Shown here piece by piece: positions 6,670-49,583 of a DNA stretch of 64,000 nucleotides. The position numbers and the translations under genes are program-made. The stretch is from Hemerocallis citrina. Lineage: Eukaryota; Streptophyta; Magnoliopsida; Asparagales; Asphodelaceae. The stretch covers positions 47,738,283-47,802,282 of the forward strand of contig CM030366.1 of NCBI GenBank assembly GCA_017893485.1, given 5' to 3'. The number at the start of each line of letters is the position of its first letter. The first letter of the stretch is position 1. Below the pieces are notes generated by a model. That model saw nothing but the letters and a program-made list of their open reading frames with translations, was not told the DNA's origin and did not search any database.

Positions 6670-6939
6670 ACCTCAAAGCGACGTTTGGGCTTCCTTGGGC
6701 ATTTAACGGCCCACTAAGAGAAGGCAAAATGCCAAAACAGAGAGTTACGACTCTTCAAATCGCTCAACTCCATCACCCGGCCACCGGTGTGCATAGCCGA
6801 GCTACCAAACAGCTTGGCTAAGCAACCGAGCTACTGGGTCGGAGGATGGCGGCGGTCCAAGACAAGGACTCTTCAAAACACCGATCTCCATCCCTCGGCG
6901 ATCAACACCTGGACGTGCCACCGAACAACCGTTCTTACC

Positions 6940-8165
6940 GATCCGAGGTGCCGAGGTACCGACCTCCACATATGGAGAAAAATTCTACCGAGGCCGAATC
7001 ACCGTCGGATCGTTCCAAAATTCGTGTCAAAACTTGATGGACGGTTCGGATAGCGCCACGCCCACAAAACGACAAGATAACGTTTTCTCGTGATCTGAAC
7101 CCCATCCTCGTGATTCACGCCGTGATGGACGCTCAGGATCGCGCCACGTAGCTCGGCAGATCCTGAGGCTCCGAGCCAAGGTGCAGGAGGAGCCGAGCCG
7201 AGGTGCCGAGGTACCGACCACCACATATGGAGAAAAATTCTGCCGAGGCCGAATCACCATCAGATCGCTCCAAAATTCGTGTCAAAACTTGATGGACGGT
7301 TCAGATAGTGCCACGCCCACAAAACGACAATATAATGTTTTCTCGTGATCTGAACCCCGTCCTCGTGATTCACGCCCTGATGGACGCTCAGGATCGCGCC
7401 ACGTAGCTCAGCAGATCCTGAGGCTCCGAGCCAAACTGCAGGAGTAGCCGAACTGAGGTGCCGAGGTACCGACCCCCACATATGGAGAAAAATTCTGCCG
7501 ACCCTCCTCAGCCGTTGGATCTTGTCAAAAAACATGCTCGGCGTAATGGACGGTCCAGATCTTGCCACGTTCACTAAACGACAAGATAGCATTTTTTGGG
7601 GATCCGCACTGAGATGGATGCTCAGGATCGTGCCATGTAGCTCGGAAGATCCCGACGCGCCGAGCCGAGCTACCGAACAGCTGGACCACCGAGCCACTAA
7701 TATAGTAGACAAGGAATTGAGCCACCGGAGCGCTTAGCCGAGCTAACGAACAGCTTGGTCGAGCCTTCGAGCTACTAGGTCGAACCGAACGTCCGGTCGG
7801 AGCACTTATTCGGCCTACAATGCCAAGCTGCCGAGCCAAGTGGACGAGGAACCGACCTCCACATATGGAGAAAAAAGAGGCCGACCCTCCTCAGCCGTTG
7901 GATCTTATCAAAAAACGTGCTCAACGTGATGGACAGCCCAGATCTTGCCACGTTCACTAAACGACAAGATAGCATTTTTTGGGGATCCGCACTGAGATGG
8001 GTGCTCAGGATCGTGCCACGTAGATCCGCAGATGCCGAGCCGAGGAGCCAAGCTGCCGACCCTCTCATACGAAGAAACTATCTGCCGAGGAACATGGATC
8101 GTCCGATCGCCCAGAAAATCGTGCTCGACGCTGATGGAGGGCTCAGATCGTGCCACGCCACAAAT
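6940..8165 (+). repeat. Diverged repeat array, units of about 200-380 bp
   Basis: The string CCGACC(T/A/C)CCACATATGGAGAAA recurs at about 6959, 7213, 7470 and 7852, with a weaker copy at 8057. Each is followed by a 'GATGGACGGTTC...GCCACG...AACGACAAGATA' segment and 'GCTCAGGATCG(T/C)GCCACGTAG'. The first three starts are about 255 bp apart; later ones are irregular, so some units have been lengthened or lost. One more copy lies at about 2865 on the far side of the antisense gene. Short frames here (for example 7260-7712 on the - strand) come from the repeat and are not genes. Confidence 0.75.
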
Positions 8166-11758: not shown

Positions 11759-14700
11759 TGTAGCGCCCCAAATCCCTATACCGGGGACCTGAGACCCTAC
11801 TCCAGGAGTCGAACTTCAAAATAGACAAATCACAGAAGTACAGGAAATTTAAAAACTTTTATTCCATATAAAGATTACATTTACAAGGGTTACAATGTCC
11901 AAATAAAAGTTACAATATTTACAACAATATAACAATGCTTGTATATGTCCCTTGGATCCTTGGATTAACACGAGCTCTGTGGTACCTGTAGATCGGCTTC
12001 GAATACCTACAAGGTGGGAAACGTCAGTACTTCGACTGACGCAAAGCTGGTGATAACAGTGATCCTCTAAAATTCAATCACAACCAATAATTTATGCAAA
12101 ATAGAAAGGTGATGTGCCAAAACAAGGGTTTAGTGGATTCGGGTTTTAGTGCACTGTTATGACATGACCTTAGGTCTAGATGCCGCAAACTCACATGCCT
12201 AACTTCTAATGCAAGTAAGACTTGGGACCACGAATGCATCCCAAACTACATACGCCCCCAAATCTAGCCGTCTTTCTCTACAATATAGGGATTCGAACCC
12301 TCGCCATGCACCCTACTCTTGTACACACTCCAGTTCCCAATAGATTGTCCATCGCCCAAGGAGATTGCAGCGGTCGGTCTATTTCCGCCCTGCAGTGCCC
12401 AAGTGGTCACCGCCAGTTGGTACCCGCGTACGGACCTCCTTAGAAACCACGTTGAACCTGGTCCTTACGACCCTTGGCTCCACATGTCCATTCATGGACT
12501 CTCGCATGCGTGTTCACCCCTGGCCCGGGTTATGAACAAATATATACCAAACACAAAATACAAACCCGCACTTTAGGGACGTGAGCACCACGGAAGGTCA
12601 ATTCCTTCGGGCCTCTCGCGCCTTACTCCGGAAAGCTTTGGAAATCAACAGATCGAGATACGAGCAGGGGACTCAATCCATGAGCGGCCGAGAACGTATC
12701 CCTACGACTGGAAGATACAACACCGCCTATGGCTTACTAGGACTAATGCAATTTCCCAACCCCCTAATAAACCATTCTAACCCCTACCTTAGTCTAATCA
12801 TTTGGGTAAGAATTACTGCTACCACACTTGCCTATCAACCTCTGGCCCCTGGCGACACCGGTCTAGTTGGCCGCTTCCCCGACTTGGACTCGTCCAGCAA
12901 AATGGCCTACGCCTGCCGCTACCACGGCTATAAATATAAAATTGCCCCGTGAGCTCCACTCACTAGCATGCTCGGATGTCCTATGCTCGGCAGAAGTCTA
13001 ATAATATAGGCCTGATAGGTGCAGGGTATCCTTTACCCTAGTGACCAACTCGAGTCACACATCCCACTTGGGGAAACAACAACCTCAATAACAGAGATCG
13101 ACCATCCCTAGCCACGAGTCACCGACTCGGCTCACACACAAGGAAAAATTGTTTTCACAATCCTTAATCCTAACCCAGACTATGCAACCTACGGGTTTCT
13201 GCCCGATCTCAAGATGGTCATAACTTTATCGATACAACTCCGATTGGAGTGTATGGCCCCAACCTGGAAAAGTACGATCCTAGGCTATAACTACCTAGTT
13301 GATCACAAGCTTAGACTCAACCGTCTAAGTCCTCAAATTATCTTTTCAACCTCCAACCCGCATGCTTCCTGTGCACGGACTACACCTTACCATTAAAACA
13401 AGATTCTACTCGTTCATCAGAACGACACAACTCAATTTCAGTAGAAGGGTGTGGGTGTCCTCAATAACTCTCTAGTTGGTCATGAGTACAATTTACACCA
13501 TTAAGTCACCCTAACACACTCATCTATCATCAATACACCCACTACACAATTGGTCTCTCCCATTCAGAGCATTCAGCTCTACTATCGTCCTCTGTCCAAT
13601 CTTACAAAAATCATAAAAATTCCTCTGTTTACTAGATTTGCCTCAAATTAGTTTTGTTGGAAAGGTCTAAGTGTCCCCTACAACTCTCTCCTGGGTCATG
13701 ATCCTCAAAATATGCCTCTAACAGGTCTCAATTTTCCAATCTTTACAGAGTGTCGAAACTGGCTGAAAACAGCACAGTGCTCAATCACAAAATCACAGTA
13801 AATTGCACACTTGTCCAATTGACACAAAATTTATGGTGGTGATACAAGACATCATACCCAACATTATGCAAAAGACCTCATGTCAAAATTCTAAGTATTC
13901 AGTGAGTAATAGCTAGTGCAAGTTATCTCAGAAACCATCCAGTTTTCACCTCAGATACTGATCATAGATAGATTTTTCTCATGCCTCTAAAATCATCCAA
14001 ACAATTTACTGATTTTTGTAGATAATAAACATGCATTAAGGAATAACGAGTAAAAATTTCAGATCAAAATCATGCTTCAATAAATTACGAAAATGTCTAC
14101 AATATCAACCATTCTGTTTTACTTTTCCTGAGTCTGCCTTACGACATATATCCATCTCACAATTTGATTAGCACATCAAATGATCATATAAAAATCTGAA
14201 ATAAATCATGGATGATCATAACACATAAATGAACAAAACCTTTTAATTTTGTGGTCTAATTCAATATATTGTGCTCTTGGAAAAATCCACAACATGGCAC
14301 TCCGAACCAGCTTTTCCTAGTTCCATTCTGACTTCTACTTCTAACTTTAGAAAAAGCAATCCTATGCATTCTAACACACATGCATGCAACCAAATTTAAT
14401 TAAGAGACAAGAATTCAAGTTTAAAGAAACTTCCCACCTTAGGTTGTAGTAGTAGAAGGGATCTCTTCAAGCTTCTTCTTGGAAATCTCCTTCTCCTTCA
14501 CTTCCTTCTTCTTTTCTCTCCTCCTTCTCTTTGGGGTGTTCTCTTCTGAAAATTCCAGAGCAAATGGGAGAAATGAAGTAGAAATGAGGGTTATGGAGGT
14601 GTGTGGGCCGGATTAGACAGGGGGGGTGTAGGTTAGGCTATAGGTGGTTTGTAGGCCTCAAAACCATGGCTTAGCCCATTGGTTTGGGGTGTGTTATGTT

Positions 14701-15023
14701 GGCTGCCCAACTTAACTCTTAACGAGCTCCAACGAGTGTGAGGTGCGTGTTTTAATGAGCGCACGCAACCTATATTCACTGTAGTACCATACCGTGTTAT
14801 ATTTGCATGTGCGTCGTGCCGAAAACTAGCTGTTATACTAGTATCGGTCCGTCTCGTTCTCATGCATCCTTGGGATGCAACTCTCTCAAAAACCGTCCCG
14901 TAGCCCTAACCATCCACCACGATGGCAAAATCGACCCATAATACTACAATAAATTGCACGCATACTATTAATATACACACACATATGCATATCTTCAGGT
15001 ACCGTACAAAACGGGGTGTTACA
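11759..15023 (-). repeat. 3' LTR of element B
   Basis: This 3265-bp LTR runs from TGTAGCGCCCC at 11759 to GGGGTGTTACA at 15023 on the + strand and matches the split copy at 20415-23030 plus 34693-35324. A donor-like site AAG|GTGGGAAG lies on the - strand at 14440-14430. The small frames inside (for example 12581-12952 and 13214-13396) recur in the other LTR copy and are not genes. Nothing else is recognised in this long non-coding stretch. Confidence 0.9.
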
Positions 15024-15037
15024 TCACTCCCTCCTTA
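15024..15037 (-). promoter_or_regulatory. Polypurine tract of element B
   Basis: On the - strand TAAGGAGGGAGTGA directly precedes the 3' LTR start TGTAACACC. The matching tract of element C (AAGGAGGGAGTGT) sits in the same place, supporting both boundaries. Confidence 0.75.
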
Positions 15038-15104
15038 GAATCGTTCTGTCCCCAGAACGTCCTTAGTGGGAGAAAGAAAAACAACAAAAAAATATAGAAA
15101 ACAC

Positions 15105-18100
15105 TTAAAATAAATTCGGATATAAGCCCCTCATGCGGCTCTCCGTCTCCCACGTGGCTTCTTCCACGAACCGGTTCCTCCAGAGAACTTTGACCATCGG
15201 GATAACCTTGTTTCTTGGTACCTTGTCCTGACGATCAAGTATCCTGACTGGTTTCTCTCTATAGGAAAGATCTACCTGTAAATCCTTCGGAACCTCTGGC
15301 AACCGATGGCTCGAATCCGGGACATACTTCCGTAGCATAGAGACGTGGAACACGTCATGCACTTGAGATAGCTCGGCCGGCAGCTCCAACTTATAAGCCA
15401 TCCTGCCAATCCTTTTCAGAATCTTGTATGGTCCAATATACCCCGGAGCTAACTTCCCGCCTTTCCCGAACCTGATAACTCCTTTGGTCGGCGATACCTT
15501 GAGAAATACGGAGTCGTCTTCCTCAAATTCTAACTCTCTTTGGCGATTGTCCGCATAGCTCTTTTGCCTGCTTTGTGCTCCTTGAAGCCTCTTCTGAATA
15601 AGCTCAATCTGCTCTGATGTCTGTTGCACGATTTCTGGTCCATACATCTACCGCTCTCCTACCTCGAACCAACAAATCGGCGTCCTGCATCTTCGTCCAT
15701 ACTAAGCTTCATACGGGGCCATGCCAATACTTGCCTGATAGCTATTATTATAAGCAAACTCCACCAAGGCTAAGTATTTTTCCCAACTTCCTCCGAAGTC
15801 CAAAATGCATGCCCGTAACATATCCTCGAGAATCCTGTTGACTCTCTCTGTCTGTCCATCTGTCTGAGGGTGAAAAGCTGTGCTGAAGTCTGTTCTAGTT
15901 CCCAACGCTGACTGTAGACTTCGCCAGAATCGAGACGTAAATCTTGCATCTCGGTCGGATACTATCGACACTGGCACTCCATGTAGCTTTACTATGTTCA
16001 CAATGTAGACCTCGGCCAACTTCTCGACTGTCCAGGTCGTCTTTACTGGGAGAAAATGTGCTGACTTGGTCAATCGATCCACAATCACCCATATTGAGTC
16101 ATTTCCTTTAGGGCTCCTGAGTAACCCAGTGATAAAATCCATACTGATGTTCTCCCATTTCCATTTTGGGATGGGTAAAGGCTGTAACAATCCTCCTGGT
16201 TTCTGGTTTTCGGCCTTAACTTGTTGGCACGTCAAACATTTGGCGACAAACTCTGCTATATCTCGCTTCATCCCTGACCACCAATAGTGTGGCTTCACAT
16301 CGCGATACATCTTGGTGCTTCCGAGGTGAATCGTGAGTAATGTGGAGTGAGCTTCCTTCATGATGTCTTCCCTCAACTCCCCGTCCTTTGGTACACATAG
16401 TCGGTTACCAAACCACAGTGAACCTTCTCTTAGACTGAATTCCGTCGATTTTCCTTCATGCACTTGCTTCTTCATGTCTTCCATCTCTGGATCTTTGGTC
16501 TGAGCCTCTTTCACTCGCTCATCCAAGCTTGGTCGTAACACTAACTGTGCCAGAACTGCACTTATGTGTTGTGTAACCACTTCGATGCCTGCCTGCCTGA
16601 TCTCTTCATCTAGCTCCCTCCGGGTCGCTATCAATGATGCCATACTTCTCTTCTTGCTGAGTGCGTCTGCTACCACGTTGGCTTTTCCTGGATGATATAT
16701 AATCTCAGGCCTGATGTCTTCGAGTACTTCCAGCCATCTCCTCTGCCTTAAGTTGAGATCCTTCTGTTGGTAGATATACTTCAAGCTCTTGTGGTCAGTG
16801 TAGATTTCCACCTTTGCTCCGTAGATATAATGTCTCCATGATTTCAAAGCAAAAATTATCGCTGCAAGTTCCAAATCATGGGTTGGATAGTTCTTCTCGT
16901 GTGGTCGTAGCTGTCTCGAACCATACGCTATAACCTTGCCTTCCTGCATCAGCACACATCCGAACCCCAAATATGACGCATCACTGTAGATGACGTAGTC
17001 CTTGTCTTCCTGAGGTAAAACTAATATAGGTGCGGAGATCAAACGATTCTTCAGTTCCTGAAAACTTTCTTCACACTTCTCCGTCCAGTCAAAACTTTGG
17101 TTCTTTTTGGTCAAAGCTGTAAGGGGTACAACTATCCTTGCATAATTCTGGATAAACTTCCGATAATACCCAGTCATACCCAGAAAACTTCTTACTTCCT
17201 TCACCATCTTCGGTTGTGGCCATTCCTTGACCGCCTCTATCTTCTGAGGATCCGTTGCCACTCCCTCCTTAGAAAGGATATGGCCTAGGAATGCAACTTC
17301 CGATTTTCAGAACTCACACTTAGATAATTTGGCATACAACTGATGCTCTTGTAACTTGCTCAAGACTGCTGTTAGATGTTCAGCATGATCCTCTTCCGTC
17401 CTTGAATATACCAAAATGTCGTCGATGAAAACCACGACAAATGAGTCGATAAACGGCCGTAGAATTCTGTTCATTAAGTCCATGAAAATAGCTGGAGCGT
17501 TAGTCACTCCAAACGGCATTACCAAGAACTCATAGTGTCCATGTTGAGTTCGAAAAGCTGTCTTAGGTACATCCTCTTCCTTGACTCGTACCTGATGATA
17601 TCCCGATCGTAGATCAATCTTGGAAAATACTGCTGCTCCCTAAAGCTGATAGAACAAATTGTCGATCCTGGGAATTGGGTACTTGTTCCGAATAGTTACC
17701 TAATTCAATTCCCGATAATCGATACACATCCTGGACGACCCGTCCTTCTTCTTAACCAGCAATACTGGTGCTCCCCAAGGCGATGCACTTGGTCTGATAA
17801 ATCCTTTCTGCAAGTACTCTTCAATCTGCTTCGTGATCTCATTCTGCTCTACTGGTGCCATTCAATAGGGTGCTTTGGATACTGGAGCGCTTCCTGGTTG
17901 AATTGTGATGCTAAACTCGACATCACAATGTGGAGGAATTCCAGGTAAATCCTCTAAGAATACAAGTGGAAAATTCCTCACCACTGGTATCTCGCTCACC
18001 TCTTCTGGTACCCATACTTCACTAGCAGTTGCGAAGGTCATTGCCTCCGATCTCTGCTCCCCGCGGAATACAAGTTCCACTCCTTCAGCTGAAATAATTA

Positions 18101-18415
18101 CCTTCTTCTCCTTGCAGTCAATGTTTGCCTTATACCTCGACATCCAATCCATGCCAATAATGACATCTGTCCCGGCAAAACCCAACTCCAACAAATCGAT
18201 ACTTAGGGTTTCTCCACTAATCTGGAGCTTACATCCCCTATAGCATAGATCTGTAGTAAGGTTTGCACCTGACGGCGTAGCTACCATCAAAGCTAAATCT
18301 GGAATTGCCTTTTGTGTGCATCTTAGCTTTCTTGAAAAAGATTTTGACACAAAAGAATGAGTCGATCCACTGTCAAACAAGACTGTTTCCAAAATTTCAT
18401 TTATATATATATGTC
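15105..18415 (-). pseudogene. Element B pol: protease, RT, RNase H, integrase, chromodomain-like end
   Basis: After the intron acceptor at 18416, a single frame runs to the stop at 15105. In order: aspartic protease (VLFDSGSTHSFVS, about 18390-18350), reverse transcriptase ([17 protein letters not shown], then [13 protein letters not shown] near 17440), RNase H (VIYSDASYLGFGCVL, then [15 protein letters not shown] and [11 protein letters not shown]), integrase (H2C2 finger with CLTCQQVK, core with MDFITGL, SDRDARF and HPQTDGQTERVNRI) and a chromodomain-like end (VKVLWRNRFVEEATWE). Six in-frame stops break it: 17864-17862, 17702-17700, 17642-17640, 17309-17307, 15704-15702 and 15650-15648. Four are explained by C-to-T or G-to-A change (for example FIEF TGG to TGA type at 17309). 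There are no frameshifts, so this is an intact architecture decayed by point mutation. Confidence 0.9.
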
Positions 18416-18495
18416 CTGTTACAACAGTACATCATCCATCAGTTCCCAAAAACCCAAAATACAACTTAAACTCATACACCTAAATGCTTACATAC
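18416..18495 (-). other. Predicted 80-nt intron between gag and protease (element B)
   Basis: On the - strand the donor is ACTG|GTATGTAAG at 18495 and the acceptor TGTTGTAACAG|GA ends at 18416. The intron is phase 1, splitting a glycine codon, and removing it joins the gag frame to the protease frame exactly. If it is not removed, translation ends at the TAA (18490-18488) inside the donor sequence, two codons after the junction. Introns at the same codon are predicted in elements C and D. Confidence 0.75.
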
Positions 18496-19567
18496 CAGTA
18501 ATTACCCTTCCATCCTTTTCAGCATCTTTCTTGGTCAAGGCGAATACTCTTCCTTGACGCATGGGCTTTTTCCCCTTGTCGGTTGCTCCCGACCCTGTCC
18601 CGTGGTTGTTCCTTGCCAATTGGGGACATTCTGGCTTGATATGCCCTTCTATTCCACACTGGAAATATTTCACTGCATTCTTCCTGGGGCATCGATCCAT
18701 AAAGTGTCCCTGCTCTCCGCAACGATAACAACTTCCGGGCTTGAATTCTCCTGCATTGGGATTGATCTTCCGGAACTTCTGGTTCTTGCCTTGCTTCTTG
18801 AACTTTGTTGCTGGGGTGGTTTTCTTCCCTTTGTTCCAGAACTCTGTCCTTCCTTGATTTTGATTCATATCTGCCTCTGTTGTTGTGGCTCTTCTCACCA
18901 TCTTGTCGAATCGGCAAATGCCCAAGGGAACCATCTTCGACCTCAATCCAGACCTAAGTCCTTGCTCAAATCTTTGGGCTTTCTTCGCTTCTTCTTGGAC
19001 CATCTCCGGCGCATACCTTGATAACTGAGAAAACTTCGTCTCATATTCTCTGACTGTCATATTTCCTTGCTTCAAGCTATGGAACTCTATTGCCTTCTCC
19101 TCTTGCACATCCAAAGGGAAATAGTGCTGTTGGAATTCCTCAAGGAAATCTTCCCAAGTGATCTGTCCCTCTCCGAGACCACGCTTTACGGACTGCCACC
19201 AAACTCCGGCGTCCTTCTCTAGCAAGATCGTAGCGAGACGTACCTTGCTGTCTTCGGGAGTCATCATCACCTCAAACACTGTCTCAACCTGACGTATCCA
19301 GTCATCAGCAGCTGTGGGATCAGCCTGTCCTTCGAAGACTGGCGGCTTCATCCTCCTAAATGATTCCACCATCTTCACTGGATCAGTGTTCCCTACAACT
19401 CCTGGTGCTCCTTGTGGCGGCGCTTGGTTCCTGCTAGCCTCCGCAAATGCTCCAATCATCTGATATACTCGAGTGAACTCTCCCCTTACATCAAGGCCAG
19501 TACCGTTGGCTCCACTGCCTTCGGCTTCAGTCTGGTCACTTCTGTTGCTTCTAGTCCTTCCTGCCAT
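18488..19567 (-). CDS. gag: Element B Gag
   Basis: The start is the ATG at 19567 (MAGRTRSNRSDQTEAEG), chosen over an upstream in-frame ATG at 19618 because a splice-acceptor-like TTAGCTTTCAG abuts it and because element C's Gag starts at the matching place. Product 359 aa for the unspliced message. The central capsid region (about 90-240: MKPPVFEGQADPTAADDWI, then VWWQSV, TWEDFLEEFQQHYFP and SQLSRYAPEMV) is the retrotransposon Gag domain. Two zinc knuckles follow: CYRCGEQGHFMDRC and a weaker one (YFQCGIEGHIKPEC) with Tyr-Phe in place of the first Cys. Gag packages RNA into virus-like particles. The frame is uninterrupted, unlike pol. Confidence 0.85.
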   Translation of the reverse strand: MAGRTRSNRSDQTEAEGSGANGTGLDVRGEFTRVYQMIGAFAEASRNQAPPQGAPGVVGNTDPVKMVESFRRMKPPVFEGQADPTAADDWIRQVETVFEVMMTPEDSKVRLATILLEKDAGVWWQSVKRGLGEGQITWEDFLEEFQQHYFPLDVQEEKAIEFHSLKQGNMTVREYETKFSQLSRYAPEMVQEEAKKAQRFEQGLRSGLRSKMVPLGICRFDKMVRRATTTEADMNQNQGRTEFWNKGKKTTPATKFKKQGKNQKFRKINPNAGEFKPGSCYRCGEQGHFMDRCPRKNAVKYFQCGIEGHIKPECPQLARNNHGTGSGATDKGKKPMRQGRVFALTKKDAEKDGRVITGM

Positions 19568-19814
19568 CTGAAAGCTAACACAGACACCATCAACCAACAT
19601 CATAATGCAAAACCCCATAACACACTTGCACTAGTCAAACATACTAGTTCCATTCATTTCAAAAAGGTTTTACAAAGATTTGTCAATACATGATCACATC
19701 ATCATCATCCCATGGGTTCATACTACACCCATCAAAACAATAGCCGTCAGCCTAGCTATTCAAAAAGGTCGTCATCTATACACTTCAAAAGAGATCCTAT
19801 AACACTAGAGGAAG

Positions 19815-20228
19815 TCACTGCTCTCCTGCTCCTGGCGAGTCGCCAACCTCAGAGCTATCCCCGGCAGTCATACGGTCCAATAGATCCTGCATGTCGCAGA
19901 CCTGTGTCCTCAGTGCCAGATACCTGCTCTGCAGTTGACCCAGCCTCTCCTCATATCGGTGCTTCAACAGTACTACCCTCGTCTTCCATTTCCTTTTGGC
20001 CCTCTCCAGCTTGGCCACTCTCCTTTCTGCAGTTATCAATGCTCTTGCGAGGTTCTCAAAACGATCCTCAAGCTGTCCATGACTCCACTTATAGGCAGCC
20101 AGCTCCTGAGACATCCGGGTGATAACTTGTGCTAAGGTTGTGGGCTGTGGGGGTGGAGGTGGAAGTGGGGGTACAGAACCATGTCCATTTGACCATCCGT
20201 TCGAGTGTCCGTTGTCCAAGTTCGGCAT
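19815..20228 (-). CDS. Element B ORF0: small coiled-coil protein upstream of gag
   Basis: This frame of 137 aa starts at ATG 20228, directly after the acceptor-like TTTCTTTTGCAG (20240-20229), and ends at 19815. It lies between the PBS and gag in the same orientation. Residues 1-40 are low complexity with a proline run (PPLPPPPPQP); 45-115 have heptad spacing rich in Leu, Arg, Glu and Lys, predicting a coiled coil; the end is acidic. Element C has a frame of 141 aa at the same place with the same layout (disordered start, coiled coil end) but little identity. No standard plant Ty3/gypsy gene lies here, and the function is unknown. Confidence 0.65.
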   Translation of the reverse strand: MPNLDNGHSNGWSNGHGSVPPLPPPPPQPTTLAQVITRMSQELAAYKWSHGQLEDRFENLARALITAERRVAKLERAKRKWKTRVVLLKHRYEERLGQLQSRYLALRTQVCDMQDLLDRMTAGDSSEVGDSPGAGEQ

Positions 20229-20234
20229 CTGCAA

Positions 20235-20387
20235 AAGAAAATATGGGAATTAGTACAGATACAGAAAAATTATAAGGCATAAATTGTAAATACAACATTA
20301 TGAATTATAATCATCAGCTATCTGACTAAACCCAACTCTCGCAATGCATCTAAGTTTTAATTTTCCTGCTGTGTTGGACTAATATTT
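20235..20387 (-). other. Leader between PBS and ORF0 (element B)
   Basis: This short non-coding leader ends in the pyrimidine-rich stretch before the ORF0 start. No structure or motif beyond the putative acceptor is seen. Confidence 0.5.
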
Positions 20388-20408
20388 GAAACCTGGCACT
20401 GATACCAA
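20388..20408 (-). promoter_or_regulatory. Primer binding site of element B (initiator tRNA-Met)
   Basis: On the - strand TGGTATCAGTGCCAGGTTTC lies 6 nt after the 5' LTR end. It matches the complement of the plant initiator tRNA-Met 3' end (TGGTATCAGAGCCAGGTTTC) with one mismatch. Reverse transcription would start here. Confidence 0.9.
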
Positions 20409-20414
20409 CTTTAC

Positions 20415-23030
20415 TGTAGCGCCACAAATCCCTATACCGGGGACCTGAGACCCTACTCCAGGAGTCGAACTTCAAAATATCCAAATCACAGAAGTACCGG
20501 AAATTTAAAAACTTTTATTCCATATAAAGATTACATTTACAAGGGTTACAATGTCCAAATAAAAGTTACAATATTTACAATAATATAACAATGCTTGTAT
20601 ATATCCCTTGGATCCTTGGACTAACTCGAGCTCCGTGGTTCCTGTAGATCGGCTCTGAATACCTACAAGGTGGGAAACGTCAGTACTTCGACTGACGCAA
20701 AGCTGGTGATAACAGCGATCCTCTAAAATTCAATCACAACCAATAATTTATGCAAAATAGATTGGTGATGTGCCAAAACAAGGGTTTAGTGGATTCGGGT
20801 TCTAGTGCAGTGTTATGACATGACCTTAGGTCTAGATGCCACAAACTCACATGCCAAACTTCTAATGCAAGCAAGACTTTGGATCACGAATGCATCCCAT
20901 ACTACATACGCCCCCAAATCTAGCCGTCTTTCTCCACAATATAGGGATTCGAACCCTCGACATGCACCTTACTCTTGTACACACTCCAGTTCCCAATAGA
21001 TTGTCCGTCGCCCAAGGAGATTGCAGCGGTCGGTCTATTTCCGCCCTGCAGTGCCCAAGTGGTCACCGCCAGTTGGTACCCGCGTACGGACCTCCTTAGA
21101 AACCACGTTGAACCTGGTCCTTACAACCCTTGGTTCCACATGTCCATTCATGGACTCTCGCATACGTGTTCACCCCTGGCCCGGGTTATGAACAAATATA
21201 TACCAAACACAAAACACAAACCCGCGCTTTAGGGACGTGAGCACCACGGAAGGTCAATTCCTTCGGGCCTCCCGCGCCTTACTCCGGCAAACTTTGGGAA
21301 TCAACAGATCGAGATACGAGCCGGGGACTCAATCCATGAGCGGCCGAGGACGTATCCCTACGACTGGAAGATACAACACCGCCTATGGCTTACTAAGACT
21401 AATGCAATTTCCCAACCCCCTAATAAACCATTCTAACCCCTACCTTACTCTAATCATTCGGGTAAGAATTACTGCTTCCACACTTGCCTATCAACCTCTG
21501 GCCCCTGGCGACACCGGTCCGGTTTGCCGCTTCTCTGACTTGGACTCGTCCAGCAAAATAGCCTACGCCTGCCGCTACCACGGCTATAAATATAAAATTG
21601 CCCCGTGAGCTCCACTCACTGGCATGCACGGACGTCCTATGCTCGGCAGAAGTCTAATAATATAGGCTTGATAGGTGCAAGGTATCCTTTACCCTAGTGA
21701 CTAACTCGAGTCACACATCCCACTCGGGGAAACAACAACCTCAATAACAGAGATCGACCATCCCTAGCCACGAGTCACCGACTCGGCTCACACACAAGGA
21801 AAAATTGTTTTCACAATCCTTAATCCTAACCCAGACTAAGCAACCTACGGGTTTCTGCCCGATCTCAAGATGGTCATAACTTTATCGATACAACTCCGAT
21901 TGGAGTGTATGGCCCCAACCTGGAAAAGTACGATCCTAAGCTATAACTACCTAGTTGATCACAAGCTTAGACTCAACCGTCTAAGTCCTCAAATTAGCTT
22001 TTCAAGCTCCAACCCGCGTGCTTCCTGTGCACGGGCTACACCTTACCATTAAGACAAGATTCTACTTGTTCATCAGAACAACACAACTTAATTTCAGTAG
22101 AAGGGTATGGGTGTCCTCAACAACTCTCTAGTTGGTCATGAGTACAATTTACACCATTAAGTCACCCTAACACACTCATCTATCATCAATACACCCATTA
22201 CACAATTGGTCTATCCAATTCAGAGCATTCAGCTCTACCATCGTCCTTTGTCCAGTCTTACAAAAATCATAAAAATTCCACTGTTTACTGGATTTGCCTC
22301 AAATTAGTTTTGTTGGAAAGGTCTAGGTGTCCCCTACAACTCTCTCCTGGGTCATGATCCTCAAAATATGCCTCTAACAGGTCTCAAGTTTTCAATCTTT
22401 ACAGAGTGTCGAAACTGGCTGAAAACAGCACAGTGCTCAATCACAAAATCACAGTAAATTGCACACTTGTCTAATTGACACAAAATTTATGGTGGTGATA
22501 CCAGACATCATACCCAACATTATGCAAAAGACCTCATGTCAAAATTCTAAGTATTAAGTGAGTAATAGCTACTGCAAGTTATCTCGGAAACCATCCAGTT
22601 TTCACCTCAGATACTGATCATAGATAGATTTTTCTCATGCCTCTAAAATCATCCAAACAATTTACTGATTTTTTTAGATAATCAACATGCATTAAGGAAT
22701 AATGAGTAAAAATTTCAGATCAAAATCATGCTTCAATAAATTAAGAAAATGTCTACAATATCAACCATTCTGTTTTACTTTTCCTGAGTCTGCCTTACGA
22801 CATATATCCATCTCACAATTTGATTAGCACATCAAATGATCATATAAAAATCTGAAATAAATCATGGATGATCATAACACATAAATGAACAAACCTTTTA
22901 ATTTTGTGGTCTAATTCAACATATTGTGCTCTCGAAAAAATCCACAACATGGCATTCTGAACCAGCTTTTCCTAGTTCCATTCTGACTTCTACTTCTAAC
23001 TTTAGAAAAAGTAATCCTATGCATTCTAAC
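20415..23030 (-). repeat. 5' LTR of element B, 3' portion (split)
   Basis: The first 2.6 kb in + coordinates match 11759-14370. The copy then breaks at CTAAC (23026-23030), where element C is inserted, and resumes at 34693-35324. The two parts without the duplicated 5 bp total 3243 bp, close to the 3265 bp of the other LTR. No gene is seen in it. Confidence 0.9.
23026..23030. repeat. Target site duplication CTAAC of element C (left copy)
   Basis: CTAAC at 23026-23030 and again at 34693-34697 flank the element. The undisturbed sequence in the other LTR of B (GCATTCTAACACACATG near 14369) carries it once, proving the insertion point. Confidence 0.95.
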
Positions 23031-23561
23031 TGTAATACCCTGATTTTTCAATTAATGAAAAATTATTTATTTTGCATGTAGTGTGCACGTGCAATATTTT
23101 AGTTGAATTAAAATCTTATAATTATTTTTATTGTGATGTGTATGAATATTTAAATATGTGTTCTCAAATTATTTTATACAAAAGCCTTTTTCTTTAAATG
23201 GATAGGAAGCCTTATTTTAAAGCCTTTTTCTTAAAGCCCAAAATATATTTTATTTATTTTATTTTTGGCCCATAAAACTAAGCCCATGGATTAATTTATT
23301 TAAAAAGTTTATTTTATTTACAAATCAAATGCACAATTTTTGGCCTAGTTGCATACACGTGCACTACACGTACACGTGCAATGCACACTACTCCTAGTAG
23401 GCCGGATTGCTTCTTTTTGGAGGGAGTTTTGAATTTGGTCATGGTGTTCATGGAGGTAGTTATGTGAATGTGGGTAGTTGTGGTAACTCCTACTCTCATC
23501 CTAGCCTTCCATCCTACAACCAACCAACTAATCCTAGCCCTCCATTCTAGTTGATTTCTAG

Positions 23562-23569
23562 TATAAATA
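23562..23569 (+). promoter_or_regulatory. LTR promoter TATA box (element C)
   Basis: TATAAATA followed by CCCCCTCCC sits about 530 bp into the LTR. Transcription would start near 23595. The same motif is at about 31994 in the 3' LTR, where it could drive read-out into the flank. Confidence 0.6.
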
Positions 23570-24151
23570 CCCCCTCCCATGGCTATATTCATATGCAATT
23601 ATATCTTTCTAAAACTATAGTCTAATTTAGTAGTAAGTTGTGAGTGAAAAGATTGAGAGGATTGTGTGGGATTGTATTGCTTTCAACAAGGAGGAGAAGG
23701 GCCGGCTATTCAAGGAGGGAAGCTTTCGGTGGTGTTGTGGAGCTTGTGCGCGCATCGTCTAGGAGGAGGTGCATTCATTCGCAAAGGACTTTCGTTGCTA
23801 TTGTGTTGTTTTCTCTTCATACAAGGTGGGTAAAATTTTCCATATTTCTAAAGTAGAAATGCTTGCTAAAATGAATGAATGATAGTGGGTTTGTTTTCCT
23901 TGTTTCTAATTAGAAATGATGTTAGTATTATATTGAGAAATGATGCATGAAAAATGTTAATATGAGTACACCCTTAATTGGAGAATTGACCAACAAATTG
24001 ATTGGAATGTGAGTATGCAATTGTATGTGATTGGATTAGTAAAAATCTAAGTTGCTATGGATTAATTATAACCATGAATGTGAACTTGGGCTAATAAGGA
24101 GATTTGTGGCATTAATTGTTGAGAAATGTCGGAAAAGAAATGTTCTGGTAA

Positions 24152-24882
24152 GTCGACTTAGGACCCTGTAAGTCGACTTATATGCTCATTTAAGTCGACT
24201 GGTGCTGTTATAAGTCAACTATTTACTTAAAATCATGGATGTTTCCCCCCTGAACAGTCGACTTACTCTAGTATGAGTCGACTGGTACTGATGCATTTTT
24301 ATAAACTCGAATGTTCTACTTTTTGAAATACATGAGACTTTATAAAGATAATTTGGGAATTGTTGCATGAAATAAAATGTGATTTGAGAATAAAAGGTGT
24401 GACCAGAACTATGATTTTGATATGTGTATTTTTGGGAAATTATACCGTGCAAAAGAACTAGAAATTAAGAAGACTAGTATAGTAAAGATTGAAGTGACAT
24501 TATAGATGCATGAAAATATGAATTATGAATATTCGTTAGTACTTCTCATTTCGAGAACAATGTGATATCCATGAAATGTGAATTATTCTTGTTGAAGAAT
24601 AGCGTGACAAAATATGATGTGTGATTCCTTAATTTGAGATTTTAAACTGGTCAGTCGACCTAATGTGTGTAGCGGTCGACTGTATAGAATTTGAGAAATT
24701 ACATAATTGAACTCTGCAAAACAGGCGACTGTGTTGAACGACAGTCGACTGTCCTGTGATTGATAATTGAAATTGGAACACTGCGGAACAGCCGACTGCC
24801 GTGTGCAGCAGTCGACTCTCCCGAGTGGTTATGAAGAACTTGAATTGACTGAACAAGTCGACTGGAAGAGATCCAAGTCGAC
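24152..24882 (+). repeat. Cluster of paired GTCGAC motifs in the LTR of element C
   Basis: Fourteen GTCGAC or one-mismatch motifs occur at 24152, 24172, 24194, 24214, 24257, 24277, 24654, 24675, 24724, 24744, 24791, 24811, 24857 and 24877. They fall into seven pairs with starts 20-21 bp apart (the first four are spaced 20, 22 and 20). Most sit inside AGTCGACT, itself a palindrome. The cluster is kept in the 3' LTR from about 32584. Even spacing of two helical turns suggests protein binding sites on one face of the DNA, or paired small hairpins. Confidence 0.8.
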
Positions 24883-25396
24883 TGTCCAGAGTGTTTGATA
24901 TGTCAGAGAAACTATTCTGTCTATTTTGAGGATTGTGAACTTTATGGTTGATGTTGATGAACTCTTTTTATTGCTGTATGAATTTACATGAAATGAATCA
25001 TAGTTTTTGAATTGAGTATTTACATGAAATAAATCATAGATTCGGATTGAGAATTACATGAATATGGAAGCTAAGATCATGATATGCTCAGGCAATGAAA
25101 AATGAACTCATGAGCTGGGAATGCTCAGATTATGTTAGAATTTGTGAATTGGAATTGAAATGAAAGAGTAGCTAAGTCTCCCCCGGCATTTGGAAAGAAA
25201 TGAAATGAATATTGAAAAGAAAGACCAAGGTTGGTCATGTTGAAACGAATGAATAAGTCCGGATGAGTGGAGAGGCTAACTCTAGAGCTTTGATTTTTAT
25301 TCATGATTCTAATAATTACTACATAGTGGAGAGGTGATGAAAGTAGGAGAAAAACACGAGTGAGGGCCATCGGATTTGCGGCGGAGGGTATTTCAC

Positions 25397-25640
25397 AGGT
25401 TCTTCACGATGAGTCGTGACATGACGTGGATACGGCTCCAGGGTGCCGTGGCGGCAGAGAGTATTTCACAGGTTCTTCACGATGCGTCGTGACATGACGT
25501 GGATACTGCTCTAGCGTACCGTCCCTATGGTGACACTTGTGGGATGTTTGGTGACTGCATGAGGATCATGTGCCATGAAGGAGGCTGAATTGTCCATAGG
25601 TTCTTCACGATGAGTCGTAACATGACGTGGGATTCCCCTC
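25397..25640 (+). repeat. Three copies of a hairpin-bearing repeat in the LTR of element C
   Basis: AGGTTCTTCACGATG(A/C)GTCGT recurs at about 25397, 25470 and 25598, each followed by ACATGACGTGG. Within it CACGA-TGAG-TCGTG can form a 5-bp stem (25405-25418, 25478-25491, 25606-25619; the last is imperfect). The 3' LTR has the same three copies from about 33829. Confidence 0.75.
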
Positions 25641-26263
25641 CAGTTTTTGTACACGTGCTTGCACTCATAGATCATCTAAGACACTACCGTAGTTACAGTA
25701 GTAGATTAAGTCATGGCGAGGGATTGAACCCTACAAAGATGAAGAACGATTAAGAGGCTTGCCCTCGGACCTATGTAGTATGGGATGCATAGACTCCGAA
25801 CAAGTGTGCATTAGTGTCATGTAACATAAATAATTGCATTAAGGATTAAGTGCACAATCACAACACGACATCAATAGGGTAGTCCCTTTAATTTGGATTT
25901 GTGACAAGTTTGTGTTTGCTAAATATGGAAAATTAAGTTATACTATTTCCGGCATAGAGAGGATGGCCGTGTATAATGATCGTCGGTTGAATAAACTGAC
26001 GTATCCACTGTCTTATATGCAGGTAAATAGCATGTTAAAGGTTAAAGAGGAATGGATGCTTAAAGATTTTACCATGTTGTTGTATATTTATTCAAATGTT
26101 GTATATTTTTACTTCCGCTGTGCAAATGAAAAGTGTAATATTGATGTGAACTCTGATGTATAGTGAAAAGTTTAAATTTCCTTGTAAAATTGTACCGAAG
26201 AAAGTGAAAAGATCCTGTAGAACATCTCGAATTCAGTGTTTTGGGATTCGGGGCGTTACAGAG

Positions 26264-26277
26264 TGGTATCAGAGCCA
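26264..26277 (+). promoter_or_regulatory. Primer binding site of element C (initiator tRNA-Met)
   Basis: TGGTATCAGAGCCA starts 3 nt after the LTR end and matches the complement of the initiator tRNA-Met 3' end, the usual primer of Tekay-type chromoviruses. Confidence 0.95.
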
Positions 26278-26429
26278 CACTTTCTATGCTTTCTACACTT
26301 TTACCAATTTATAAAGAACGACACCCTAGATGTGGACATTAGAGTGTGTGTTCGAGTTTAGATATTTAAATGTAAGTGACTTACATTTGTGTTGCTCTAT
26401 GACTTATGCTTCTTCCTCTCTATTCTAAG

Positions 26430-26855
26430 ATGGCTGATCACTTCGACCCTGCTGGAGATGACGACTGGCATATCATTGAGGAAGAGTACCATCCTGGACC
26501 GGCAGATTCCGAGGACGAGTATCACCCTGGGCAAGCAGATTCTGATGAGGAGGAGTGGCCTGAATCTCGAGAGATTACCCCACCTCCAGATTCATCTGAC
26601 GATTCTTCTTCTGATGAAGAAGAGGAACCAGTTCCAAGTGGTCTTGTGACTTCTCTTCAGAGGCAGGTAGAGACACTGCGAGAGAGAGTCGGATTATTGG
26701 AGGCTCAGCTGGCGAAGCGAAAGGACGACTTTTCAGTTCTCAGTCACCGGGTATGGGAACTTGAAAAGAGGAAGAACCTGACTGATGTGCTGAATGATGA
26801 AGTTGATGAACTACGGGAAGAACTTCAAGCAGCGAAGAGGACCCTTAGGAGTTAG
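26430..26855 (+). CDS. Element C ORF0: acidic coiled-coil protein upstream of gag
   Basis: This uninterrupted frame of 141 aa starts at ATG 26430, directly after a pyrimidine-rich TTCCTCTCTATTCTAAG; an ATG at 26406 in the same frame would add eight residues. Residues 1-80 are very acidic with repeated EDEYHPGQADSDEEE-like segments; 80-141 form a predicted coiled coil (LQRQVETLRERVGLLEAQL, ending DEVDELREELQAAKRTL). It matches the place and layout of element B ORF0 but shows little identity. It is one of the few undamaged frames in this element, although gag and pol are broken. Function unknown; an RNA- or Gag-binding accessory role is only a guess. Confidence 0.7.
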   Translation: MADHFDPAGDDDWHIIEEEYHPGPADSEDEYHPGQADSDEEEWPESREITPPPDSSDDSSSDEEEEPVPSGLVTSLQRQVETLRERVGLLEAQLAKRKDDFSVLSHRVWELEKRKNLTDVLNDEVDELREELQAAKRTLRS

Positions 26856-26998
26856 ATTGTTGTAGCTTCTATTTTCTTCCGTTCTGATGTTAAGAAATGT
26901 TTTTAATTCGAATGTATAAAGTTGGAATTCAATTAAATGCAAGTTGGTTTAAATTCTTGTCTTATACTTCGAATTTAATGGATCTTTTGCATCAGAAT

Positions 26999-27999
26999 AT
27001 GTCGAGAAGAGGAGCTAGGAATGGGGAAGGTTTGGATCTGGAGACCAAACTTGCAAGGGTCTACCAGACGCTTAATGCAGTGGCTATGAACCAAGGAAGG
27101 GGGCCGGTGAATCCAGTACCCGAGGCGATTAAGCTGGTGGAATCGTTCAAGAGAATGAAACCACCTGTATTCGAAGGAAAGTCAGATCCAGATGCGGCTG
27201 ACAACTGGATTCGGCAAGTGGAGACAATCTTTGAGGTGTTGGAGACACCGGAGGGCAGCAAGGTCAAGTTGGCGACTTTGCAATTCGAGAAGGATGCGGC
27301 TGTTTGGTGGCAGTCGATGAAGAAGACCATGGGAGGTATAGTGCTTGGCTGGGATTTCTAGAGGAATTCCGCAGTCACTATTTCCCCTCCGATGTTCAGG
27401 AGAAGAAGGCCATGGAGTTTCTGTCGCTTCAGCAAGGCAGCATGTCAGTGAGGGAGTATGAGACCAAGTTTACTTAGCTCTCTAGGTATGCGCCTGAACT
27501 GATAATGGATGAGGCTAAGAAGGCTCGTAAGTTCGAGCATGGACTGAGGCTAAGCTTGAGGTCTCGGATGATACCTCTCGGTATCAGAAGATTCGACAAG
27601 TTGGTGAAGAGGGCAGCAGCGACAGAAGCAGATATGGAGCAGTTCCAAGTTATTCAGAACCGAAGGAATAACTGGCAGACTGGTAAGAGGCCTGCACATT
27701 CTGGGAGTTTCAAGGGGCAACCATCTGCACAAAGGTTCAAACCGACAGGGACGAACGCTGTTAGTGTAGCTGGAGGACCTGGAAACAATGTGGTGAGACC
27801 TCCTGCGGTGACTTGCTTCAATTGTGGTGAGACGGGACATTTCATGTCTCAATGCTCCAAGCCACGGAACAGTAATCGCAATGTACCAATGCAGCAGTCT
27901 GGAAAGAGGCCGTACCAATCAGGGCGAGTATTTGCCTTGACGGAGGCTGATGCTGAGGAAGCAGATGAGGTCATCTCTGGTACGAGGGTTGATGTTTAG
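26999..27999 (+). pseudogene. gag: Element C Gag, broken by a frameshift and a stop
   Basis: The start ATG at 26999 lies 3 nt after an acceptor-like CTTTTGCATCAG. The capsid domain is clear (MKPPVFEGKSDPDAADNWI, then VWWQSMKK, HYFPSDVQEKKAMEF and REYETKF), followed by one zinc knuckle CFNCGETGHFMSQC at about 27817-27860. A one-base deletion near 27357 (TTCTAGAGG where element B implies TTCTTAGAGG) shifts the frame, and TAG at 27475-27477 replaces a glutamine codon seen in B. The unspliced frame ends at TAG 27997-27999, seven codons past the intron donor. Gag from this copy would be truncated before the zinc knuckle. Confidence 0.9.
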
Positions 28000-28068
28000 T
28001 GGTTTTGTCATTTCTTCTTCCCGCTCATATTGTGAAACTGTTATATAATGGTGTGTATTATGTAACAG
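27980..28068 (+). other. Predicted 89-nt intron between gag and protease (element C)
   Basis: The donor is TCTG|GTACGAGG at 27980 and the acceptor TTATGTAACAG|GA ends at 28068. It is phase 1, splitting a glycine codon; joining restores one frame from gag into protease. Acceptor sequence TGTAACAG|GA is identical to that of element B, although the intron interiors differ. Without splicing, translation stops at 27997-27999. Confidence 0.75.
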
Positions 28069-31000
28069 GAGAACTTTATCTTAATGGAATGAAAGCTGTT
28101 GTATTGTTCGATACTGGATCCTCTCATTCATTTGTGTCTCCTAAATTTGCTAAAGTGTTGGGAGTGGAACCAAAGATCTTTCCAGGCAAGATCTTAGTAG
28201 TAGCTACTCCATCAGGGGAAACTTTGACCACTGATCGGTGTTACGCTGATTGCGAGATTGTGATTGGAGATCGAGTCTTTGGCATTGATCTGATCGAGCT
28301 GACTATCTTGGGAGTCGATGTTATCATTGGCATTGATTGGATGTCGGTGTACAGTGCAAGCATCGAGTGTAAGACCAAGACGGTAACAGTGAAGGCTCCA
28401 GGTGGACCTGAAGTCACTTTCCGAGGGAAGCAGAAGTGTGCTAAGTTGGTGGCAACTATCCGCAAGGAAGAGACTCCTGTGGAATTGCAAGGGATTCCTG
28501 TGGTTCGGGACTATCCGACTGTGTTCTTGGATGATTTTCCTGGGTTACCCCCGCATCGTGATGTAGAGTTCAGCATCACTGTTCAACCGGGAAGTGCACC
28601 CATTTCTAAGGTACCTTATAGGATGGCTCCAGTGGAACAGGATGAAGTGAAACGGCAGATTGAGGAACTGTTGGAGAAAGGCTTTATTCAACCTAATGCG
28701 TCACCTTGGGAGCACCAGTGCTTTTGGTAAAGAAGAAGGATGGATCGATGAGAATGTGTACCGATTACCGAGAGCTGAATAAGGTCACTGTTCAGAATAA
28801 GTATCCGATTCCTCGAATTGATGACTTGTTCAATCGTCTACAAGGAGCAACTGTATTCTCCAAAATATATCTTCGATCAGGATATCACCAAGTGCGAGTG
28901 AAAGCTGAAGATGTGCACAAAACTGCATTTAGAACTCGGCATGGGCATTACGAATTCTTAGTTATGTCATTCGGAGTGACGAATGCACCCGCAATCTTCA
29001 TGGATTTGATGAACAAAGTTCTGAGGCCATTTATTGATTCTTTCGTCGTGGTGTTTATCGACGATATTCTCGTGTACTCCAAGTCAGAGGAGGAGCACAC
29101 TGAGCATCTGGCAGTAGTTTTGCAGAAGTTGGAAGAGCAGAAGTTGTATGCCAAGTTATCTAAGTGTGATTTCTGGAAATCTGAAGTGGCATTCCTAGGT
29201 CACATCCTTTCTAAGGAGGGAGTGGCAACTGACCCTCAGAAGATAGAGGCAGTGAGAGATTGGGCCAGGCCTACTACAGTGAAGGAAGTCAGAAGTTTAC
29301 TTGGGATGACTGGATACTACAGGAGATTCATTCAAGGTTATGCTCAGATAGCTGTACCGCTTACTGGACTTACCAAGAAGAATGTGAGCTTCAAGTGGAC
29401 TGAGCAATGTAAGGCGAGCTTTCAGGAGTTGAAAGAGAAGCTTACTACTGCACCTATTTTGGCTTTGCCTAGAGCAGGTGTTGAGTATGATGTTTATAGC
29501 GATGCTTCACATCGTGGGCTTGGTTGTGTCTTAATGCAAGAAGGAAGAGTAATCGCTTATGGGTCTAGACAACTACGACCACATGAGAAGAATTACCCGA
29601 CTCATGATCTAGAGTTGGCTGCGATTATCTTTGCTTTGAAGCAATGGAGGCACTATGTGTACGGTGAGAAGTTGAACATGTACACGGACCACAAGAGCTT
29701 GAAGTATATATATCAGTGAAGTGACCTGAATCTGAGGCAGCGAAGATGGTTAGAAGTGCTCGAGGATATGCGACCTGAGATCAAGTATCATCCTGGAAAG
29801 GCTAATGTTGTGGCTGATGCACTTAGCCGCAAGAGCAGTTTGGCCAGCTTGATTACAACTCAGAAGCACCTGGTTGAGGAGTTGGACCGAGCAGGTATCG
29901 AGGTTGCCTTGCAAGGATTAGGAGCATCTTTGGCTCAGTTGAGGCTTCAGCCTACTTTGAATGCAAGGATTATTGCAAGTCAGGAGCTTGATGCTGATAT
30001 TTTGGAGATGAAGGAATAGGTTGGCGCTGGCAGGTTTCCTGGATTTCAAATCAGGGATGGAGTGCTGTGGTTCGGAGATAGGCTGTGCGTTCCAAATCAG
30101 GCGGACCTGAAGGAGAGTATTCTTCAGGAGGCGCATGCTACTCTTTTGTCGGTACATCCTGGGAGTACTAAGATGTAAAAGGACATCAAACAGTATTTTT
30201 GGTGGTCAGGTTTGAAGCGGGATGTGGCTGAATTTGTTGCGAAGAGGTTTGTCAGCAAGTCAAAGCCGAAAATCAGAGACCCGGAGGTCTATTACAGCTG
30301 TTACCTATTCCGGAATGGAAGTGGGATAACATCAGTATGGATTTCATCACGGGATTGCCTAAGAGTCCTAAAGGCAATGATGCGATTTGGGTTATAGTTG
30401 ATCGACTGACCAAGTCCGCTCACTTTTTGGCGATGAAACTCACTGCTTCGATGGACAAGTTGGCTGAGATGTATGTTGGTGAGATTGTCCGACTTCATGG
30501 TGTTCCCTCAACTATTGTGTCTGATCGAGATGCGCGGTTTACTTCGCATTTCTGGAGGAGTCTTCAGACAACTTTGGGTACCAAGACAGATTTCAGCACT
30601 GCTTTTCATCCGCAAACCGATGGAAAGACCGAGAGAGTCAACCGTATTCGTGAGGATATGCTTCGGTGTTGTATACTAGACTTTGGAGGCAGTTGGGTAA
30701 GGCATTTACCTTTGGTAGAGTTTTCCTACAACAACAGTTTTCAGGCTAGCATCGGGATGGCGCCGTACGAAGCTTTGTATGGTAGGAAGTACAGAACACC
30801 TGTTCGTGTTATGAAGTTGGGGAGCGGCAGTTGTTTGGCCCTGAGCTTGTACAGAAGACTTCTGAGAAGATTGTTCTGATCAGGAAAAGGTTGGTGGAAG
30901 CTCAGAGCATGCAGAAAAGCTATGCAGACAACCGGAGAAGGGACCTTGAGTTTGAGGTTGGTGACTTCGTCTTTCTGAAAGTATCGCCCGGTAAAGGTGT

Positions 31001-31376
31001 GGTTCGATTTGGCAAAGGCGGGAAGTTAACCCCGAGGTTTATAGGTCCGTATAAGATATTGAAAAGGATCGGAAAAACTGCTTACTGGCTTGAATTACCG
31101 GAAGAGTTGTCTCAGGTGCACAATGTCTTTCATGTGTCTATGCTGAGAGGTTATATCCCAGATCCGAGTCATCATTTGCCTGAAGTGCCAGAAGGTTTGC
31201 AGTTGGATCTGAACTACATCGAGTCTCCTGTCGAGATTGTTGACCGTAGGGAGAAAGTCTTGAGGAATAAGACGATACCGATGGTCAAGGTGGTCTGGAG
31301 AAACCATTTGGTTGAAGAGGCTACTTGGGAGTCTGAGGAGAGGATGTTGAAGGATTATCCTGAGCTCTTTGCTTGA
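28069..31376 (+). pseudogene. Element C pol: protease, RT, RNase H, integrase, chromodomain-like end; broken
   Basis: Protease (VLFDTGSSHSFVS) is at about 28105-28145, RT at about 28640-29160 (FIDDILVYS at about 29056), RNase H to about 29720, integrase at about 30030-30880 and a chromodomain-like end (VKVVWRNHLVEEATWE) to the stop at 31376. Lesions: one-base deletion near 28708 (GGG for GGGG before AGCACCAG), TGA 29717-29719, TAG 30017-30019, TAA 30176-30178, a frameshift near 30245 in the zinc finger, and another near 30803. In RT motif A the sequence is [10 protein letters not shown] where other copies have [10 protein letters not shown]: a catalytic aspartate is replaced by tyrosine (codon 28868-28870). 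Pol from this copy cannot be active. Confidence 0.9.
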
Positions 31377-31457
31377 TTGTATCTTTGTATCTTTTGTTCT
31401 TGTTGTTGTGTTTTTTGTTTTTCTCGCTCTTGACTGTAGTTCCGGGGACGGAACTAT

Positions 31458-31473
31458 TTTAAGGAGGGAGTGT
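31458..31473 (+). promoter_or_regulatory. Polypurine tract of element C
   Basis: TTTAAGGAGGGAGTGT directly precedes the 3' LTR start TGTAATACCC at 31474. The purine run AAGGAGGGAG matches that of element B. Confidence 0.8.
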
Positions 31474-34400: not shown

Positions 34401-34692
34401 GTGTATAATGATCGTCGGTTGAATAAACTGACGTACCCACAGTCTTATATGCAGGTAAATGGCATGTTAATGGTTAAAGAGGAATGGATGCTTAAAGATT
34501 TTACCATGTTGTTGTATATTTATTCAAATGTTGTATATTTTTACTTCCGCTGTGCAAATGAAAAGTGTAATATTGATGTAAACTCTGATATATAGTGAAA
34601 AGTTTAAATTTCCTTGTAAAATTGTACTGAAGAAAGTGAAAAGATCCTGTAGAACATCTCGAATTCAGTGTTTTGGGATTCGGGGCGTTACA
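31474..34692 (+). repeat. 3' LTR of element C
   Basis: This 3219-bp copy of 23031-26260 has scattered substitutions and an 11-bp deletion near 31800 (a repeat of CACGTGCACTA-type sequence lost). It contains the same TATA box, GTCGAC pairs and hairpin repeats, and ends GGGGCGTTACA at 34692. Confidence 0.95.
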
Positions 34693-49560: not shown

Positions 49561-49570
49561 AGGTTTTTAG

Positions 49571-49583
49571 TGGTATCAGAGCC
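49571..49583 (+). promoter_or_regulatory. Primer binding site of element E
   Basis: TGGTATCAGAGCC starts 10 nt after the LTR end, within TTTTTAGTGGTATCAGAGCCCGG. It matches the complement of initiator tRNA-Met. The 10-nt offset is shared with element D. Confidence 0.9.

Follow-up and report, generated by a model that had tools for sequence, protein, structure and literature searches.

Two adjacent retrotransposons with an interrupted glycine codon

The stretch of Hemerocallis citrina DNA analysed here (64,000 nt, C9:47738283-47802282; the window) contains two adjacent Ty3/gypsy retrotransposons of the chromodomain type, B and C, whose coding sequence is interrupted between gag and protease by a short tract with the ends of an intron. 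Element B lies on the minus strand at 11759-23030, between long terminal repeats (LTRs) at 11759-14375 and 20415-23030 that are 96.4% identical by self-BLAST; element C follows on the plus strand at 23031-34692, with LTRs at 23031-26260 and 31474-34692 that are 98.5% identical by the same comparison. Pfam matches reveal in both the gypsy order of gag, protease, reverse transcriptase (RT), RNase H and integrase, and the two elements are 71-74% identical across the stretches that BLAST aligns. A chromodomain (PF00385) follows the integrase with 22.5 bits in B and 24.6 bits in C, slightly below the cut-off of 25.1. Both carry a primer binding site (PBS)-like motif, exact in C (26264-26275) and with one mismatch in B (20396-20407), which we take to approximate the complement of initiator tRNA-Met. 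The window holds four matches to this motif against 0.25 expected, and one mismatch is likewise found at a place that would fit a further element, D (see below). The primer site so assumed, the long LTRs and the near-threshold chromodomain make it likely that B and C are of the Tekay (Del) type.

The gag open reading frame (ORF) of B (18488-19618, minus strand; Pfam PF03732 and PF00098) extends into the tract with its final sense codons, Gly-Met, and the 3' gag ORF of C (27505-27999, plus strand, with a zinc knuckle match) also ends inside it; the upstream gag of this C copy is in a different frame. Beyond the tract, a second exon encodes the protease and the start of pol in B (17862-18415, minus strand) and the protease and the start of RT in C (28069-28730, plus strand), each with a match to RVP_2 (PF08284). 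The tract splits one glycine codon after its first base (phase 1) and runs from GT to AG over 80 nt in B (18416-18495, minus strand, GTATGT...TGTAACAG) and 89 nt in C (27980-28068, plus strand, GTACGA...TGTAACAG). An initial annotation, made from the letters of the window, had predicted a conserved and probably regulated intron here, and the boundaries it gave for B and C proved exact to the base.

The T content of the tract is 41% in B and 43% in C, and 12 residues separate the gag motif from the split glycine in both elements. When sites within 500 nt on either side were ranked by splice frequencies, the B donor came 2nd of 57 GT sites and the B acceptor 2nd of 105, while the C donor came 3rd of 76 GT sites and the C acceptor 1st of 86; the match of both elements to splice sites exceeds chance. 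A possible branch point, CTGAT, occurs in the B intron, with its A 24 nt before the intron end. As had been noted earlier, B and C share the acceptor TGTAACAG followed by GA while the intron interiors differ, being no more alike than shuffled sequences (p 0.45); the likeness of the whole introns (p 0.001) is driven by the ends. By eye, the acceptor GTAACAGGA, which reads V-T-G, resembles the donor side, raising the idea of a tandem duplication as the origin of the intron. In the unspliced message the gag frame meets a stop at the second codon after the glycine in B, as first described, and at the sixth in C, where the seventh had been given.

The same glycine in related elements

We examined 125 database proteins, 5 from a search with B gag and 120 listed of 553 matches. 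The protease motif as written was not found in 29 of them, and fewer than 25 residues lie ahead of it in 22. Among the 74 with at least 25 residues upstream of the motif, 63 have a glycine exactly 10 residues before the protease xLF; many of the 74 are gene models, the gag tail is not recognisable in all, and they are not proof of uninterrupted plant DNA. The spacing of ten residues that the initial annotation had singled out is real in B and C, but it is normal in relatives without the tract and peculiar to neither element. Plant-like DNA loci found in bacterial records keep a single frame from the gag tail into the protease in four of five cases; the fifth shows no motif, its match beginning beyond the junction. 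Tekay/Del-like relatives thus have the gag tail, the glycine and the 10-residue spacing of B and C and lack the insert, and since they read through with the same spacing, what B and C carry in the tract is extra sequence added at a fixed position.

The records concerned (L001-L005 and P0046), labelled for example Mycobacterium or Streptomyces, carry plant-like retroelement DNA, apparently as contamination. Two Dioscorea gene models, P0001 (isoform X4) and P0126 (X2), end gag at the same glycine, with DVVAG then EDQ, and others, P0134 and P0144, continue through the site; an exon edge at that glycine in Dioscorea is possible on these models. Viral contigs, scanned twice for relatives, yielded none that was confirmed.

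Intron-bearing and intronless copies in the genome

We searched the genome to which the window belongs (3,775,421,867 bases) for copies of both families. The C protease gave 41,453 loose first-look candidates, the best 150 of which were scored; of the 50 copies fetched, 45 could be parsed, all but L009, L014, L020, L032 and L044. In every one of the 45 the tract interrupts that glycine codon; it is 86-103 nt long and has GT in 45 copies and AG in 41. Its length modulo 3 is 0 in 22 copies, 1 in 8 and 2 in 15, so that the frame relation between gag and protease is not fixed, and this shifting relation excludes frameshifting or readthrough as a common route to Pol. No gaps are needed to align exon 1 (150 nt in 45 copies) or exon 2 (85 nt in 44 copies), in contrast to the tract, and variation affects 4 of 180 letters at the splice dinucleotides against 290 of 3723 in the interior (Fisher p 0.003, for copies that are not independent). 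The sixth-codon stop in the gag frame is kept in 44 of the 45. One C copy with a frame of 1482 amino acids, considered as a candidate intronless copy, was rejected, being found to hold an 87-nt tract and to have lost the gag-frame stop.

A pattern for the exact spliced C junction matched the genome 99 times, and the reversed pattern, used as a control, 0 times. C-like junctions account for 86 of these matches, in 11 variants, and one other form (ATTAATGG...) for the remaining 13. Six matches were read out: five join C gag to C protease at the glycine, and the sixth, which belongs to the 13, is unrelated. Flank variants of several junction matches, such as ATCTCTG with GCGAACTCTATC, recur in intron-bearing C copies, which fits more than one loss in this family. 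The share of intronless copies looks lower in C than in B.

The corresponding search for B gave 40,529 loose candidates; the 150 best were scored and 90 copies fetched (L056-L105 and L111-L150); 74 could be parsed and 16 could not. A tract of 75-84 nt is present in 61 of the 74, with GT in 59 and AG in 57, its length again taking all three values modulo 3, and the second-codon stop is kept in 37 of 38 copies. In the other 13 the tract is exactly absent (L057, L059, L071, L073, L078, L086, L099 and L105, and further L114, L119, L139, L140 and L146). Some of these vary by single bases or in the length of an AT repeat near the joint, with identical ends of the loss, and the 74 parsed copies show no large inexact deletion at the tract. 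The initial annotation had proposed scoring aligned Tekay-type elements for GT-AG tracts, length and phase; the B and C copies scored here, together with the exact C junctions, strongly support its prediction of a conserved, spliced intron.

Trees were built separately from the upstream and downstream flanks of the first 46 B copies, which include the first eight of the 13 intronless ones. The eight require 8 changes on each flank tree, a single origin appears in 0% of 200 bootstrap trees, and the approximately unbiased (AU) test rejects a single intronless clade (p 1.65e-6 downstream, 7.3e-5 upstream). Our best estimate from these trees is about eight independent losses among the eight.

Five further B copies, L106-L110, were retrieved with a search pattern selective for intronless copies, and all are exactly intronless. 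They form a group supported at 100/99 upstream and 94/75 downstream. In the upstream tree, computed without the long branches L072 and L105, this older clade nests with the intron-bearing L082, L097 and L098 (100/100); in the downstream tree, where L108 is a long branch, it is sister to the remaining B copies. Recombination with this clade was considered as a source of the scattered intronless copies and is not supported for the eight of the 13 tested: in all eight, both 120-nt flanks score 112-120 against intron-bearing copies and 104-110 against members of that clade.

Sixteen of the 90 B loci are without B exon 1, and in 13 of these (L084, L088, L095, L103 and nine among L123-L147) the match starts at intron base 23-24. 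The four named loci, which were read further upstream, have a different gag ahead of the B-type intron and have lost the AG at the normal acceptor position; L126 and L136 retain TGTAACAG. These loci are a chimeric, apparently non-autonomous sub-family that combines another gag with the B intron from about base 24 and the protease and pol, the crossover lying within the intron.

A spliced intron that may set the ratio of Gag to Gag-Pol

Taken as a whole, the explanation that we hold to be very likely is that B and C contain a spliced intron between gag and protease whose partial splicing sets the ratio of Gag to Gag-Pol. That the intron is real and spliced in both families is, judging from the genomic copies, almost certain, because repeated base-exact loss implies that spliced RNA was reverse-transcribed more than once. 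Control of the ratio by partial splicing, which we infer from the arrangement of the frames, is probable. As we envisage it, a short U-rich spliceosomal intron interrupts a conserved glycine codon where a linker joins the Gag zinc knuckle to the protease; the spliceosome would remove it at the predicted ends, and part of the spliced RNA would then be reverse-transcribed, from which scattered intronless B copies among intron-bearing ones would be expected. Most sampled copies retain the intron, so that the usual template is unspliced RNA, and since the gag frame of this RNA stops before the protease, ordinary translation of it can yield Gag but not Gag-Pol. Unspliced RNA would thus be both genome and Gag-only messenger, with its stop 2 or 6 codons beyond the glycine, while the spliced fraction would encode Gag-Pol, and partial splicing would fix the proportion of the two. 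The regulatory role suggested in the initial annotation is in this respect plausible, being favoured by the kept stops; the intronless clade counts against its being indispensable.

A number of observations weigh against this explanation. The evidence comes from genomic DNA, and the base-exact intronless copies are an indirect sign of precise removal from RNA. The B and C copies were drawn from the 150 best-scoring matches and are not a random sample. Support within B is weak, the starred branches forcing just 3 and 2 changes, so that the safe claim is more than one origin of intron loss. The 45 parsed C copies include no intronless one, meaning that loss is either rarer in C or sampled differently. 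The conserved gag-frame stops may be explained by recent common descent alone, and the intronless B copies are scattered no more than shuffled labels, which gives no sign of a fitness cost of loss. Finally, the older intronless B sub-lineage did, by its sequences, amplify to some extent, and a clade of five intronless copies means that the intron is not strictly essential.

The alternative that survives best, although we think it unlikely, is an intron that is spliced but passive, with no role in the ratio, and retained only since particles mostly package unspliced RNA. It agrees with the amplified five-copy clade, with the intronless state of 13 of the 74 parsed B copies and with the lack of the insert in database relatives. 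What counts against it is that unspliced RNA must persist as template even though its gag frame ends before the protease in nearly every copy (37/38 in B, 44/45 in C), and that both families keep the intron despite flanking exons (150 nt on each side of the tract) that are 66-69% identical.

Far less probable is an ancestral intronless state in B, with the tract a recent, spreading insertion. The downstream tree, where the older clade branches as sister to every other B copy, and the database relatives without insert would suit such a history; in the upstream tree, though, that clade is nested with the intron-bearing L082, L097 and L098, the main set of intronless copies is scattered and, as a single clade, rejected, and C is interrupted at the identical codon by a tract ending in the same acceptor. 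Translational recoding is widespread among LTR elements, and the tracts of B and C in the window are both 2 modulo 3, but we give almost no credence to a tract that is no intron and from which pol is produced by frameshift, readthrough or reinitiation: tract length takes all three values modulo 3 across the copies of both families, an argument that by frame alone does not reach reinitiation, and 13 of the 74 parsed B copies lack the tract to the base, from GT to AG. Equally implausible are chance DNA deletions in which spliced RNA played no part, for although an imperfect short repeat (ACTGG/ACAGG) borders the tract and the joint is, on inspection, ambiguous by one base, all 13 whole-tract losses share identical exact ends and none of the 74 parsed copies has a large inexact deletion; the C and L106-L110 junctions, having been found by exact patterns, are uninformative here.

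A partially spliced gag-protease intron would be a simple answer to how LTR elements with one polyprotein make Gag in excess over Pol, which is unsettled for many plant gypsy elements. Because the same families hold intron-bearing and exactly intronless copies, copy numbers, trees and ages could yield estimates of the cost of loss and of the rate at which spliced RNA undergoes reverse transcription, in a natural counterpart of the hand-built intron-loss marker of laboratory retrotransposons. We are evenly divided on the broader picture, in which the intron would sort RNA in two abundant chromovirus families, spliced RNA leaking into particles would give intronless daughters, most of them founding no lineage, and the donor-like glycine codon may serve other plants as well.

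Element D and other features of the window

The initial annotation had counted element D as a third case at the same codon, which the sequence does not bear out, and D is not counted in our finding. Its GT...AG tract (59207-59365, plus strand; 61% T, 7% A) is 159 nt long, a multiple of 3, and stop-free in the protease frame. By a manual count across a frameshift, about 9 residues separate the gag motif from the named donor and about 13 from the expected VVA-(G), where the glycine codon is not intact; by this spacing the named donor lies about 3-4 codons too early. The D tract may be a decayed intron.

Elsewhere, the segment 34693-35324 is a repeat of internal sequence of B (14371-15023), with C lying between it and a B LTR; C seems to have inserted at the LTR edge of another B-family copy, one that shares an LTR with the first, in the order LTR-internal-LTR-internal (11759-35324). 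In the leftmost part of the window, tandem repeats occupy 1999-2863 and 6938-8157, with periods of 113 nt and of 255 nt, the latter with a related 123-nt part, and 46706-53307 holds a long direct duplication, 87-91% identical at a spacing of about 3.7-3.9 kb.

Comparison with known systems

Plant LTR elements are generally intron-free according to a 2025 review, which names Ogre and EVADE as notable exceptions (PMC12786077). A gag-protease intron in a Tekay-type element was not met in the accessible parts of the literature searched, which include PMC6317226, PMC12786077, PMC7730604, PMC1142308, PMC3735527, PMC2533021 and PMC6696364; subscription literature lies largely outside this set, and we therefore claim no priority. 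Among gypsy elements, CRR transcripts are reportedly spliced also (PMC3735527). The Ty1/copia element BARE1 has a 104-nt intron, and its spliced RNA yields Gag only (PMC3735527); splicing of EVADE, likewise Ty1/copia, removes the protease region, and the spliced RNA again encodes Gag only (PMC12786077). Splicing near the gag-pol boundary chooses the protein in BARE1 and EVADE, as we propose for B and C, but there the unspliced RNA gives the polyprotein, so that the scheme proposed here is reversed.

The closest parallel is Ogre, which the initial annotation had cited as having an intron in a related role. Ogre, of the Tat lineage of Ty3/gypsy in legumes, does have a partially spliced intron (PMC6317226), but it lies between protease and RT rather than between gag and protease. 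The intron of B and C, 75-103 nt long, lies ahead of the protease and not at the protease-RT position by which the Ogre type is recognised, and the two elements also differ from Ogre in being of the chromodomain type with a tRNA-Met-like primer site. By analogy, the B and C intron would work in the manner of Ogre, in another lineage and at another boundary.
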